The notes under the pieces are model-generated. The model was not told the origin of the DNA and did no database searches. It saw only the letters and a program-made list of their open reading frames with translations. DNA of 64,000 nucleotides from Streptomyces sp. NRRL S-455 (GTDB lineage Bacteria > Actinomycetota > Actinomycetes > Streptomycetales > Streptomycetaceae): assembly GCF_000717875.1 (NCBI RefSeq), contig NZ_JOCT01000016.1, positions 1 through 64,000 on the forward strand. Reading direction: 5' to 3'. This document shows positions 4,530 to 61,438 of the stretch, piece by piece; position 1 is the stretch's first letter; each line of letters opens with the position of its first letter. A program made the translations under genes and the position numbers.

Positions 4530-4967
4530 GTGGTGAGCACCGACTGGAAGAGCGATCTGCGGCAGCGCGGCTACCGGCTGACCCCGCAGCGGCAACTCGT
4601 GCTCGAAGCCGTGGACACCCTGGAGCACGCGACCCCCGACGACATCCTCGTGGAAGTGAGGAAGACGGCGTCGGGGGTCAACATTTCCACGGTGTACCGG
4701 ACGCTGGAGCTCCTGGAGGAGCTCGGGCTGGTCAGCCATGCGCATCTGGGGCACGGGGCGCCGACGTATCACCTCGCGGACCGGCACCACCACCTCCACC
4801 TGGTGTGCCGGGACTGCCAGGAGGTCATCGAGGCGGACGTCGCCGTGGCCGCCGAGTTCACCGACAAGCTGCGGCAGACGTTCGGGTTCGACACCGACAT
4901 GAAGCACTTCGCGATCTTCGGCCGGTGCGAGGACTGCACGCTCAAGGCTTCAACTACCGAGTCGTAG
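4530..4967 (+). CDS. nur: Nickel-responsive Fur-family repressor Nur
   Basis: The 145-residue Fur-family regulator has a winged helix (RGYRLTPQRQLVLEAV, then NISTVYRTLELLEELGLV). Metal ligands fall at the positions reported for S. coelicolor Nur: His33, His86, His88 and His90 for the M site, and His70, His72 and His126 for the nickel site. The zinc-type pairs C93/C96 and C133/C136 are also present. Nur represses sodF and nickel uptake genes and thereby controls the choice between the Ni and Fe superoxide dismutases (known from S. coelicolor). The start is GTG, and ygfZ follows after 10 bases. Confidence 0.9.
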   Translation: MVSTDWKSDLRQRGYRLTPQRQLVLEAVDTLEHATPDDILVEVRKTASGVNISTVYRTLELLEELGLVSHAHLGHGAPTYHLADRHHHLHLVCRDCQEVIEADVAVAAEFTDKLRQTFGFDTDMKHFAIFGRCEDCTLKASTTES

Positions 4968-57440: not shown

Positions 57441-58157
57441 TCATTGCCCCAGAGATTGAACTCGGAATGACAGCCCTTCTGGGCTGTGCAGTCTCAGATT
57501 GGACTGGTTGGTCTCTCGGATCCAGGTAGCGAGACTCTGGCCACCGCCACCGATCTGCACGCGGGAGATGACGCCATCCAGGTCATCGACCCCGACGGTA
57601 AGTTCCCACTGCGGGGTAGCGATGGGTTCACGCGCCGCGATGAACGCGGCAGCCGCCAAAGGGGTGCCTGTCAACTGGTGGTAGAAGTCCCGGGCCCGGT
57701 CCGGTTGGTCGCAGGCCAGGACCATGTGGTGTGGTGCGCCTGCCAAGCGGGGCGGGAACTTCCACCCGGTGAACCCATGGGGTTGCCACAGGGAGAAAGC
57801 GGCACCCACCGGGTCGATCAGCGTCGCCGTACGGCCCTGATCGCCCGCGTCAAAGGGAGCCACGACAAGACGCGCGCCGTTCGCCGTCGCGGCTTCGGCG
57901 CGGCGGTCGACGTCGTCAACGGCCAGGTAGTAGGCGACGTGGGCGGGCGTGTCCAGTGGGTAGATCGGGTTCGCAAGGTCGCTGACGCCGCCGATCTGGT
58001 ACCCGCCGATGGTTATCTTGGTGGCCTGGCGCCAGTCCTCCTCATCCACTGCAAAACACCAGCCCAGTGCCTGCGATAAGAAGGCAGCGGTACCGGATGG
58101 GTCGCGGGTTTTCAGGTCCATCCAGCAGAACTCGTTCAACGAACCGAGGGGGGTCAT
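57441..58157 (-). CDS. Two-domain VOC-family protein
   Basis: The protein has 238 residues from an ATG with AAGGAGG upstream. The first VOC domain reads LNEFCWMDLKTRDPSGTAAF, VAYYLAVDDVDRRAEAATAN and TATLIDPVGAAFSLWQP; the second reads HHMVLACDQPDRARDFYHQL to SPEGLSFRVQSLGQ. Such two-domain VOC proteins are frequent in Streptomyces and often annotated as glyoxalase or hydroxylase. It lies between two IS relics but is intact. Confidence 0.8.
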   Translation of the reverse strand: MTPLGSLNEFCWMDLKTRDPSGTAAFLSQALGWCFAVDEEDWRQATKITIGGYQIGGVSDLANPIYPLDTPAHVAYYLAVDDVDRRAEAATANGARLVVAPFDAGDQGRTATLIDPVGAAFSLWQPHGFTGWKFPPRLAGAPHHMVLACDQPDRARDFYHQLTGTPLAAAAFIAAREPIATPQWELTVGVDDLDGVISRVQIGGGGQSLATWIRETNQSNLRLHSPEGLSFRVQSLGQ

Positions 58158-58219
58158 CGTGTCCTCCTTGTCTTTCGAGTGCTGGGTATCGGCTCGCCGG
58201 GCGACTGCGCAAGCGGGTT

Positions 58220-58755
58220 TCAGCTGCCAGCCGTGCGAGAGCTCCGGCGGGAAGCCGCAGGTCTGTGCTGCGCATGCAGTGACACCAGCCGTCTCCAGCA
58301 GATGAGAGCGCATCCGAGGGTGAGGAACGCTTCGTGGATGTCGTCGCGTAATCTCCCAGCGAATCCGCAGGCGGCGGAACCAGCGCAGGTGAGCGAATGC
58401 ACGCTCGACGACCCAGCGTTGGGTGCCGAGTCCGGAGCCGTGTTCGGTGCCGCGGCGGGCGATCAGCGGCCTCACGCCGAGGGCCCGGACCAGACGGCGG
58501 TACTTGTCGTGGTCGTAGCCGCGGTCGGCAAGGATCACGTCCGGGCGGTGCCGGGGCCTGTCACTTGCCTCGCACCGGCGGCACGGCCTGGAGGAGCGGG
58601 ATCAGCTGGGTGACATCGTTGCGGTTGCCACCGGTCAAGGCGGCAGCAAGCGGGATGTCGGTGGCGTCAGTGATCAGAAGATGCTTACTGCCCGTCCTGC
58701 CCCGGTCAACGGGGCTTCGTCCGGTCTTGGCTCCCCCTTTACGCTCCCCGCGCAC
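58220..58755 (-). pseudogene. IS5-family transposase remnant with frameshifts
   Basis: The minus strand gives, in three frames, GGAKTGRSPVDRGRTGSKHL then LAAALTGGNRNDVTQLIPLL, next ILADRGYDHDKYRRLVRALG and TQRWVVERAFAHLRWFRRLR, and finally DDIHEAFLTLGCALICWRRL. These are the DDE-domain blocks of actinomycete IS5/IS1182-like transposases. Two shifts (near 58560 and 58350) and loss of the N-terminal 110 residues leave it dead. Its 5' end abuts the integrase remnant. Confidence 0.75.
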
Positions 58756-58944: not shown

Positions 58945-59960
58945 ATGGCGCCCGGGCAGTACATCGACCCGCGCGCGGCACGGATCACGTTCCAGCAGTA
59001 CGCCGAGAACTGGGTGACTCACGCACCGGATCCGAACACTCAGGCGTCGATGGAGTCGCAGCTTCGGCTGCACGCGTTTCCTTACCTGGGGTCATGTCCT
59101 CTGGGCTCCTTCCAGCCCGCTCACATCCGTGACTGGGGGAGGCAGTTCCAAGAGAACGGCGTCCGTGGTTCGTACGCTCGGACGATCTACTCCAATGGCG
59201 GGCAGCTCTGAGCGCAGCCGTGGACGATGGGCACCTTCCCCGGAACCCGTGTGCTGCTCGCTCGGTCCGGCCGCCGACCGTGGACAGCAAGCGAGTGGTC
59301 CCATGGACGGCAGAGCGGGTCTTCGCCGTACGGGCCGGCATGCCCGAGCGGTACCAAGCCATGGTCGACCTGGGCGGCTGCGGTCTCCGCCAGGGGGAGA
59401 TCCTTGGCATCGCCGTCGACGCGATCGACTTCGCGGCGGGCACGCTCCACGTGGTCCAGCAGCTCAAGCTGAGCCGTAGCAAGCCCGTGTTCGCCCCACC
59501 CAAGGGTGGCAAGCTGCGGGACGTGCCGCTGCCCGGCCCGGTCGCTGATGCCCTCCGGGACCACATGAAGCGGTTCCCGCCGGTGGAGATCACCTTGCCG
59601 TGGAAGGTGGCGGGTGGGCCTCCGGTGACCAAGCGGCTAATCTTCACCGGCCCGCGTGGCGGTCATGTCTGGCGGACGTCCCTCAACGAGGAAGTTTGGA
59701 AGCGGGCGCTTGCCTCGGCCGGAGTGATCCCTGAGCGGAAGCCGGGCGAGTCCTGCGCAGAGTCCCGCGAGAACGGCATGCACGCCCTCCGGCACTTCTA
59801 CGCCTCAGTGCTCCTGGACGCCGAGGAGAACATCAAGGCCCTGGCCGAGTACCTCGGCCACTCGGACCCGGGCCTGACGCTCCGCGTGTACGCGCACCTG
59901 ATGCCGTCCAGCCAGGAACGGACCCGCAAGGCTGTGGCTTCGGTCTTCGAGCATCGCTGA
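58945..59960 (+). pseudogene. Tyrosine site-specific integrase, frameshifted
   Basis: The N-terminal SAM-like/core-binding part reads [20 protein letters not shown] and MESQLRLHAFPYLGSCPLGS up to a stop at 59209-59211. The catalytic part continues one frame over from LSAAVDDGHLPRNPCAARSV (59218 on). The active-site set is complete: Arg in GCGLRQGEILGI, HALRHFYAS for H-x-x-R, LGHSDP for the second His and Tyr in LRVYAHL. One base change near 59200 would restore about 340 residues. The far N-terminus is lost at the IS5 relic. It is the probable integrase of a former integrative element or prophage. Confidence 0.75.
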
Positions 59961-60107
59961 GATGAACGCTGTAATCAGAGATCGGTACTCCGCTAGCCGC
60001 ATGAGGAGTGAGTGAAGAAGCTCTCTGACAGACGCACAGATCAGAGTTAGCGGACAAGCTCGTAAAGTTGATTCGAGACCTCACGCGTGAGAGATTGAAG
60101 TCCAAGC

Positions 60108-60162
60108 TCTAGAGCCATCTAGCTGGCTCTAGATGGCTTACGGAAGTTCTAGGAGACTCTAG
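60108..60162. repeat. Helically phased TCTAG array with inverted repeat
   Basis: TCTAG occurs at 60108, 60118, 60128, 60148 and 60158, always at multiples of exactly 10 bases, with one skipped position at 60138. CTAG is normally scarce in Streptomyces DNA. Within it AGCCATCTAG (60113-60122) and CTAGATGGCT (60129-60138) form a perfect 10-base inverted repeat with a 6-base loop. It lies 148 bases behind the integrase stop, so arm-type integrase or excisionase sites are the obvious guess. Confidence 0.75.
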
Positions 60163-60217
60163 GACGACCGAGGACCTGGATCCGGCTGCAACCAGACCCA
60201 GGCCCTCATGCAGTCAA

Positions 60218-60250
60218 CGAGCCCGGTCGCTCACCAGCAGACCGGGCTCG
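60218..60250. terminator. Terminator after the integrase
   Basis: CGAGCCCGGT (60218-60227) pairs perfectly with ACCGGGCTCG (60241-60250) around a 13-base loop. It can serve the integrase on the plus strand and the small membrane peptide on the minus strand. Confidence 0.7.
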
Positions 60251-60299
60251 CTGCATGTACAGCTGCTCCCAGTCGCGACCGTCCTCGCGCGTGACTCGC

Positions 60300-60419
60300 T
60301 CATCGAGCGAACTGCATCACGCCGGTAGCGATGGCCACCAGTAGACCCGCTCCCGTAAGCCAGACCTGCCACCTCTCGGCGCTGGTCCACCTACGAGGCT
60401 CGTCCTTCTCAAGGCTCAC
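60300..60419 (-). CDS. 39-residue membrane peptide near the integrase
   Basis: A GTG with GGAGG 8 bases upstream opens VSLEKDEPRRWTSAERWQVW then LTGAGLLVAIATGVMQFAR and a TGA. A charged N-terminal half precedes one transmembrane helix (about 20-36). Peptides of this design (RRWTSAERWQV plus one helix) occur beside integrases in Streptomyces mobile elements, as far as I recall. It is convergent with the integrase across the terminator. Confidence 0.65.
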   Translation of the reverse strand: MSLEKDEPRRWTSAERWQVWLTGAGLLVAIATGVMQFAR

Positions 60420-60625
60420 CTCTACCGCCTCCCTTCCTCCTTCAACCGGCCCGCTAGTCGGACCGGTGCCTAGGAACTCACGCGCCGATGGGCGGAGTTC
60501 AGGGAAGGATCAGGTGAGGCGCGACCAGCATACCGGTCATGTTGTTATTCACCGAGGGACGACAGAAGGCTTGACAGCGGCCCCAAATGCCTTTCACGGC
60601 CCAGCGACGGCCCCAGTGCATCAAC

Positions 60626-60676: not shown

Positions 60677-61438
60677 TTACTTCTTCTTGCCCTGGTTCTT
60701 GACCGCCTCAATGGCCGCCGCGGCCGCCTCGGGGTCCAGGTACGTGCCGCCCGGGTTCAGCGGCTTGAAGTCGGCGTCGAGTTCGTAGGACAGCGGGATG
60801 CCCGTCGGGATGTTGAGGCCCGCGATGTCCGAGTCGGAGATGCCGTCCAGGTGCTTGACCAGGGCGCGCAGCGAGTTGCCGTGGGCCGCGACCAGGACCG
60901 TCCGGCCCTTCAGCAGGTCCGGGACGATGCCGTCGAACCAGTACGGGAGCATGCGGACGACGACGTCCTTCAGGCACTCCGTCTGAGGCCGCAGCTCCGG
61001 CGGGAGGGTCGCGTAGCGCGGGTCGGAGAACTGGGAGTACTCGGCGTCGCGGTCGAGCGGCGGCGGCGGGGTGTCGTAGGAACGGCGCCACAGCATGAAC
61101 TGCTCCTCGCCGAACTCGGCGAGCGTCTGGGCCTTGTCCTTGCCCTGGAGGGCGCCGTAGTGGCGCTCGTTCAGGCGCCAGGAGCGGTGGACCGGGATCC
61201 AGAGGCGGTCCGCGGCCTCGAGGGCCAGCTGGGCCGTGCGGATCGCGCGCTTCTGGAGGGACGTGTGGACCACGTCGGGGAGGAGATCGGCGTCCTTCAG
61301 GAGCTCGCCACCGCGGACTGCCTCCTTCTCGCCCTTCTCGTTCAGGTTCACGTCCACCCAGCCGGTGAACAGGTTCTTCGCGTTCCACTCGCTCTCGCCG
61401 TGGCGGAGGAGGATCAGCTTGTACGGTGCGTCGGCCAT
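60677..61438 (-). CDS. gpmA: 2,3-bisphosphoglycerate-dependent phosphoglycerate mutase
   Basis: The 253-residue protein reads [20 protein letters not shown] (phosphorylated His in RHGES), [29 protein letters not shown] with the catalytic Glu, and [17 protein letters not shown] with the second His. It interconverts 3- and 2-phosphoglycerate in glycolysis. Length and all motifs are normal. The Lys-rich end (KNQGKKK) is typical of Streptomyces. Confidence 0.95.

Follow-up and report, generated by a model that had tools for sequence, protein, structure and literature searches.

Behind the remains of an integrase gene in Streptomyces sp. NRRL S-455 the pentamer TCTAG recurs in a 10-bp register, and the question raised by this locus is whether the array is bound by a protein and, if so, by what kind of protein. 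An initial annotation proposed cooperative binding by an integrase, an excisionase or a repressor of the element, and we have compared the 64,000-nucleotide stretch of DNA that carries the array (the window) with related loci in other Streptomyces genomes. The array has the look of a set of protein-binding sites, preceded by a probable promoter and part of a small gene module that a decayed mobile element left behind, more than of a site for the integrase of that element. The argument turns on the following features.

58945 to 59960, plus strand: decayed tyrosine integrase gene, residues 1-66 missing, the rest in two frames
60068 to 60096, plus strand: promoter-like block, TTGATT-17-GAGATT, the second hexamer directly preceded by TG; most copies conserve it at this position
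60108 to 60162, plus strand: TCTAG array, five copies in 10-bp register with a degenerate slot at 60138 (from sequence and shuffles)
60113 to 60138, no strand: perfect 10-base inverted repeat covering copies 2 and 3, arms separated by 6 nt (from sequence)
60170 to 60207, no strand: hairpin 1, fold preserved although the sequence varies between loci
60206 to 60257, no strand: hairpin 2, arms 60215-60228 and 60240-60253, highly conserved
60300 to 60419, minus strand: gene for a 39-aa peptide, GTG start, one hydrophobic stretch, convergent with the array side
60596 to 60613, no strand: att-like core ACGGCCCAGCGACGGCCC beside gpm
60677 to 61438, minus strand: gpm, the chromosomal neighbour, histidine phosphatase family PF00300

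Phasing of the array and its occurrence in Streptomyces

On the plus strand TCTAG starts at 60108, 60118, 60128, 60148 and 60158, exactly as had been claimed, and the slot at 60138, where a copy had been said to be missing, reads TTACG. Successive copies are one or two helix turns apart and the array units read about TCTAGANNGC at 10 bp. The phased score of a 170-bp region was 10 at period 10 and at most 4 at periods of 7-9 and 11-14, and it was matched by 0 of 1,000 dinucleotide shuffles. CTAG, which the initial annotation had described as strongly under-represented in Streptomyces, is scarce in the window, with 25 occurrences compared with 42.8 expected from trinucleotide counts, and TCTAG was found 12 times on both strands (7 of them inside the array) compared with 31.3 expected. 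The perfect 10-base inverted repeat that had been said to overlap copies 1-3 exists, with arms at 60113-60122 and 60129-60138, but it covers copies 2 and 3 and merely abuts copy 1; a 92% inverted repeat (60108-60120 and 60121-60133) extends to copy 1.

In the 8.2-Mb genome to which the window belongs, the single TCTAG triple with gaps of 2-8 is the present array, and three of the five exact TCTAG pairs at 10 bp lie within it. Triples of this kind, at some spacing, were detected in 57 of 392 Streptomyces genomes, where they consist partly of plain tandem repeats and partly of motifs recurring in several genomes at other spacings; among the matches listed, 10/10 spacing occurs in six genomes, in two of which (the window's genome and G044) it is found at the present locus. 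That phased triples of many periods are spread across the genus in this way speaks for a drifting tandem repeat, according to which slippage copied a 10-mer near TCTAGTTAGC that is now decaying and is read by no protein. As a separate observation, a motif near TCTAGACC-N5-TCTAGACTGAAAATCTAG with 13/13 spacing recurs in several Streptomyces genomes (e.g. L054, L063, L074, L079), and other TCTAG-triple motifs such as TCTAGACCCGACTCTAGGTTCTAG likewise recur in several; these motifs may be operators of their own.

The host element and the array in its relatives

The description of the integrase as dying was borne out, as the part matching residues 1-66 is absent and the remainder is split over two frames. 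The att core beside gpm is marked by an imperfect direct repeat, 16-21 bp long, that includes ACGGCCCAGNGACGGCCC; a left copy was identified in six of the 16 stretches with gpm (L033, L035, L037, L038, L041, L045) but not for the window. When 392 genomes were searched at the DNA level, eight loci (L002-L009) proved to share the block adjoining gpm, which we take to encode phosphoglycerate mutase, and 20-kb stretches were read for these and for further loci. Pfam detected RepSA in L035 and L038, an FtsK/SpoIIIE gene and a DUF2637 protein in L035, and an HTH_17 excisionase with a tyrosine integrase in L038, and tblastn revealed relatives of Xis and Int in the annotated stretches. In L035, Int, Xis, RepSA and an FtsK-type Tra lie between att repeats, as in a pSAM2-type AICE; in the window itself, int remnants and the core are what was identified of an AICE. 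Judged by this gene content, the element of the window is a remnant whose relatives are pSAM2-type AICEs, with which they share RepSA, FtsK-like Tra, DUF2637, HTH_17 Xis, tyrosine integrase and an att-like direct repeat. The element differs in its position beside gpm, whereas the excerpts of PMC3218068 and PMC9513070 speak mainly of tRNA genes; no tRNA gene was found in the window, and a tRNA attachment site was rejected on this ground. In the open-licence literature, no paper combining AICE, phosphoglycerate mutase, integrase and Streptomyces was found. Before the integrase remnant, at 57441-58538, a frame fuses a weak piece of a DDE transposase (below the Pfam cut-off) to a glyoxalase-like domain.

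In order to follow the array itself, phased TCTAG was scored in 13 relative segments. It was matched by at most 1 of 1,000 shuffles in six of them (L005, L006, L007, L008, L009, L108) and by 25 of 1,000 in L080, and it was not significant in the remaining six (L002, L003, L004, L088, L166, L017). Because L002, L004 and L088 retain an open integrase, the block, the hairpins and the peptide without a significant array, the array is dispensable. Block, hairpins and peptide are also kept where no integrase was found within 20 kb (L003, L008, L009) or where C-terminal pieces alone remain (L005), and the best-scoring array after that of the window, in L008, stands in a 20-kb stretch without a match to the full-length integrase. 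An early link between the array and a broken integrase was dropped, since in L006, L007 and L108 an array occurs together with an open integrase. In plasmid L032 and in L017, which belong to a separate lineage without this integrase, GTGAGAGATTG precedes a pair of CTAGs spaced by 10 bp, after which come the hairpins.

From the alignment of the copies, it is evident that the array changes faster than its flanks, and in L006 the CTAG spacings are 6, 14, 6 and 27, with no strict 10 throughout. When nine relatives were aligned with the register taken from the right (3') flank, identity within the array was 0.53 over TCTAG (phases 1-5) and 0.37 over the linkers (phases 6-10), compared with 0.25 for shuffles; the window row, which is one base out of register, was excluded, and L006 and L080, partly out of register, were retained. 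The value of 0.53 was reached by 0 of 2,000 shuffles, and phases 1-5 were the best of ten circular windows, the next best reaching 0.50. TCTAG is best kept and the linkers are also above shuffles, so the whole 10-mer is repeated, TCTAG most. This bears on two readings at once. Linkers repeated along with TCTAG, as in a plain tandem repeat, count against an operator and for a drifting repeat, as do presence and copy number that vary from relative to relative; patchiness among the relatives, repetition of the linkers and rapid change are accounted for nearly as well by a drifting repeat without function as by an operator. On the other hand, under a drifting repeat it would be less expected that TCTAG is better kept than the linkers in a register set by the flank, that this register persists in diverged copies, and that the position relative to the block recurs, also in L017 and L032. 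As the array is absent from six of the 13 relatives, we consider a drifting tandem repeat to be nearly as likely as an operator.

Candidate proteins for the array

The proposal that the array consists of attachment sites for Int or Xis has in its favour that it sits in the gap between int and att and that Xis is an HTH_17 protein, a class of known directionality factors that use repeats spaced by one turn (excerpts of PMC7498355 and PMC11963761). However, 434 bp separate the array from the att-like core, an interval in which the hairpins and a gene are located, and in L008 the array stands without int. In addition, the repeat does not follow the cognate Xis. L092 and the array-bearing L100 are 97% identical over the N-terminal 170 residues of Int and 89% identical in Xis, yet L092 has a different, 13-bp repeat, whereas L100 and L108 share the TCTAGTTAGC unit though their Xis proteins are only 72% identical. 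According to the initial annotation, its reading would be refuted if related integrases lacked the array, and largely they do lack it: among the best 80 of 162 related integrase loci, screened with 10 shuffles per locus, five have the module (L080, L081, L088, L100, L108) and only L100 and L108 have a clear array, and in at least 18 of the best 80 the integrase stops directly at the att core. As most related integrases lack the array and L092 has a different repeat beside a near-identical Int and Xis, we consider an integrase or excisionase site very unlikely. Of the binding proposed originally, a cooperatively bound array stands, by a small margin, as the best reading, an element repressor may be its ligand, and integrase and excisionase are improbable.

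The gap after int can contain other repeats, the unit being 13 bp long in L092 and 12 bp in L114, and both have the words AGCTC and TAG in common with the 10-bp unit (by eye). The shared words can be counted for an Int or Xis site, and they also favour a drifting repeat, since the unit length may itself drift; the occurrence in this gap of tandem repeats with units of 12-14 bp, seen in other elements at the gpm site, points the same way. Together with linkers above chance, the words shared by the 12-bp and 13-bp repeats shift the balance slightly from an operator towards a drifting repeat. It was also observed that in L092, L114, L119, L122 and L157 short-period repeats (12-14 bp) just after int are followed by more repeats or hairpins, and that these loci have a different small membrane frame, in several of them ending at the att core (by eye).

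A GntR/HutC-type repressor was considered as a further candidate, either DasR, whose sites contain TCTAGA according to the excerpt of PMC4398421, or a GntR protein encoded inside the L037 element. In L037 (reverse complement, 4801-4845), CTAG-N4-CTAG operators lie directly before the start codon of the GntR-family gene, and they are kept in four further inspected loci of at least 89% identity (L169, with three of four CTAGs, L170, L172, L173). Nevertheless, the GGTCTAGACC of the DasR consensus is absent from the array units, and these do not form the A(G/C)TGGTCTAGACCA(G/C)T palindrome by which a dre site is defined (excerpt of PMC4398421), the spacing of the L037 operators is 8/11/8 and not 10, and eight further GntR loci of 44-47% identity are without upstream CTAG, including the best match in the window's genome (44%) and not counting L174. 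A GntR-type operator appears even less probable than a site for Int or Xis. In L193, L194 and L209, TCTAGTCCTTTCTAG-like pairs spaced by 10 bp resemble the DasR site for chI of S. coelicolor as given in the same excerpt (PMC4398421). DasR was rejected because the TCTAG 10-bp pairs elsewhere in the window's genome and in S. africanus (L209, L193) resemble this chI site and the array does not (PMC4398421, as excerpted), and the Tra-linked GntR genes of L033, L035 and L037 were rejected because other palindromes and scattered single CTAGs, and no CTAG array, lie near them (by eye).

The FtsK/SpoIIIE gene of the relative L035 raises the idea that the array represents clt-like recognition sites for an FtsK-type transfer protein, TraB. 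A clt site is bound by TraB and is required in cis for transfer, and short repeats in non-coding DNA that vary from element to element would suit such sites. Yet clt repeats are 8-bp G+C-rich words, and the good array of L008 has no integrase within 20 kb. We regard this as the least probable of the readings considered.

One-turn direct repeats are, nonetheless, a familiar kind of operator, and the statement of the initial annotation that no known terminator, attP core or iteron looks like this was too strong, as such repeats are usual for RDFs and BldC in the excerpts cited here. RDFs occupy tandem repeats spaced by one turn in a highly cooperative, head-to-tail fashion, and Apl acts in addition between promoters as a transcription regulator (excerpt of PMC7498355); RdfS of a Mesorhizobium ICE oligomerises in a similar manner (excerpt of PMC11963761). 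The operators of Apl of phage 186, lambda Xis and P2 Cox are direct repeats one DNA turn apart, as are the repeats in the window and in six relatives, L006 departing from strict spacing; an array between promoters that is used for transcription control is in particular a feature of Apl (PMC7498355, as excerpted). The present array, to which binding is putative, differs in lying 434 bp away from the att core rather than in an att arm near it and in not tracking the sequence of Xis. BldC, a regulator of the Streptomyces host, likewise binds head to tail on direct repeats at promoters, with about one turn per subunit (excerpt of PMC5859096), and its operators at whiI and smeA-sffA resemble the array in this arrangement. 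They differ in their consensus, given in that excerpt as AATTNNNN(C) at 9 bp, and repeats of this type are not present in the array. As far as consensus sequences allow a judgement, none of the compared proteins (BldC, DasR) matches the array.

The adjoining module of hairpins and membrane peptide

The local anatomy was read from an alignment of twelve copies. From left to right, the end of int is followed by the promoter-like block, the variable array, a conserved ACGACCGAGGACC leading into hairpin 1, hairpin 2 and the convergent 39-aa frame. The hexamers of the block, at 60068-60073 and 60091-60096 in the window, follow the pattern AAAGTTGATT-N-CGTGAGAGATTG, and in most copies TTGA and GANANT are 17-18 bp apart (by eye); L004 has TTGC, and L008 departs from the pattern in that the first hexamer is not kept. 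This conservation and spacing suggest that the block is a promoter, and a strict sigma-70 promoter scan returned none at the block. From the second hexamer to the first array unit the distance is 11 bp in the window and also, by eye, in L002, L005, L080 and L088, and 4-9 bp in L007, L008 and L108; the array would thus start about 5 bp after the inferred transcription start. Hairpin 2 is possibly a shared terminator. The single Rfam match (E 0.79, 18 bits compared with a gathering score of 90) is far below threshold, and a known RNA family was rejected for this reason; in the phage collection, the 731-bp region had no match. In L166, where the DNA match is confined to the hairpins, a second two-hairpin copy was observed elsewhere in the same genome (G023), with a degenerate block and repeats.

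If the block is a promoter, the repeats might act in the RNA, forming a 5' stem-loop of the hairpin transcript. Compared with shuffles, the array does show stronger folding in the window (z -4.0), L009 (-5.3), L088 (-4.2) and L017 (-3.8), but nine of the 13 folded segments showed no excess (z above -2; L006, in which the block pattern was not found, was left out), and a stem does not need a 10-bp period. A role in RNA is thus quite unlikely, though less so than a site for Int or Xis.

The peptide has one hydrophobic stretch of 19 residues with a mean hydropathy of 1.66. Among 12 copies, mean dN was 0.091 and mean dS 0.267, with dN below dS in 65 of 66 pairs, and by this measure the peptide is under purifying selection. 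A Pfam search returned no family for it, it is a hypothetical protein wherever a source names it, and homologues were found at many loci. A profile search located it in 25 of 199 Streptomyces genomes at 30 places, two of which have an in-frame stop. At 21 of the 30 places the frame was recovered by a motif scan; 18 of the 21 carry hairpin 2 by pattern, and the remaining three (L228, L233, L240) have a variant hairpin with paired changes (by eye). The peptide is also encoded on plasmids (L031, L032, L189, L190 and L192, not L191), and behind a MoaA-like gene in L014 and, by eye, in L024. Two hairpins accompanied by a convergent peptide about 34-42 aa long, with one hydrophobic stretch, were seen repeatedly on Streptomyces chromosomes and plasmids (L010-L032, L189, L190, L192, L211-L240).

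The geometry and the conservation of peptide and hairpins make it possible that the hairpins and the convergent peptide (60170-60419 in the window) are a type I toxin-antitoxin-like unit. In the type I toxin-antitoxin pairs Fst/RNAII and TxpA/RatA, the two genes converge and overlap at their 3' ends. The present module resembles them in that a short one-helix membrane peptide faces a convergent hairpin region, on chromosomes and on plasmids; the short hydrophobic peptide gene expected of such pairs is here and is under selection, and for an antisense RNA promoter there are the conserved block and hairpins, in which the strict scan saw no promoter. It differs from these pairs in that its toxicity and both of its transcripts are putative. 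Shared repeats of the Fst kind between the array and the peptide leader were rejected, because the longest word in common has 6 letters, which is at shuffle level (P 0.58).

Taken together with the array, this anatomy leads to the reading that we prefer, tentatively and at somewhat less than even probability: the array would be a cis-regulatory operator for a head-to-tail regulator with one turn per subunit, which controls the hairpin transcript. The module, carried by a pSAM2-type AICE at its end nearest gpm, would comprise promoter, array, two hairpins and the convergent gene for the 39-aa membrane peptide. The direct repeats just downstream of the promoter would be occupied head to tail by a small protein that binds DNA cooperatively and that we do not name, and synthesis of a short structured RNA directed towards the 3' end of the peptide gene would thereby be switched off or adjusted. 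The agreement of the geometry with that of the one-turn head-to-tail operators in the excerpts cited above argues for this operator, as do the phased TCTAG of several relatives, the better preservation of TCTAG than of the linkers, the recurring position behind the block, the retention of block, hairpins and a selected peptide where the integrase is missing, and the paired CTAGs of L017 and L032. Against it count the dispensability of the array, its rapid change, the irregular spacing in L006 and the negative strict promoter scan, and no regulator gene tied to the array was found. A more specific proposal goes further, namely that the array is the operator of an undescribed actinobacterial type I toxin-antitoxin-like module, that its sites, one turn apart and filled cooperatively, set the level of an antisense (antitoxin) RNA of the membrane peptide, and that the module spreads with AICEs, plasmids and chromosomes and persists after its element has lost the integrase; in its entirety we consider this proposal unlikely, if somewhat less so than a role of the repeats in RNA.

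If the array is an operator, repeats spaced by one turn in the gap between int and att are not necessarily att sites, and the operator would serve a small accessory module of an AICE. The adjoining peptide-hairpin module is a more consequential lead than the array. According to the excerpt of PMC12390103, type I toxin-antitoxin systems had previously been described in Proteobacteria, Firmicutes and Tenericutes only, to which that paper adds Cyanobacteria, and among the matches listed in the open-licence literature, as excerpted, there was none on a Streptomyces type I system.
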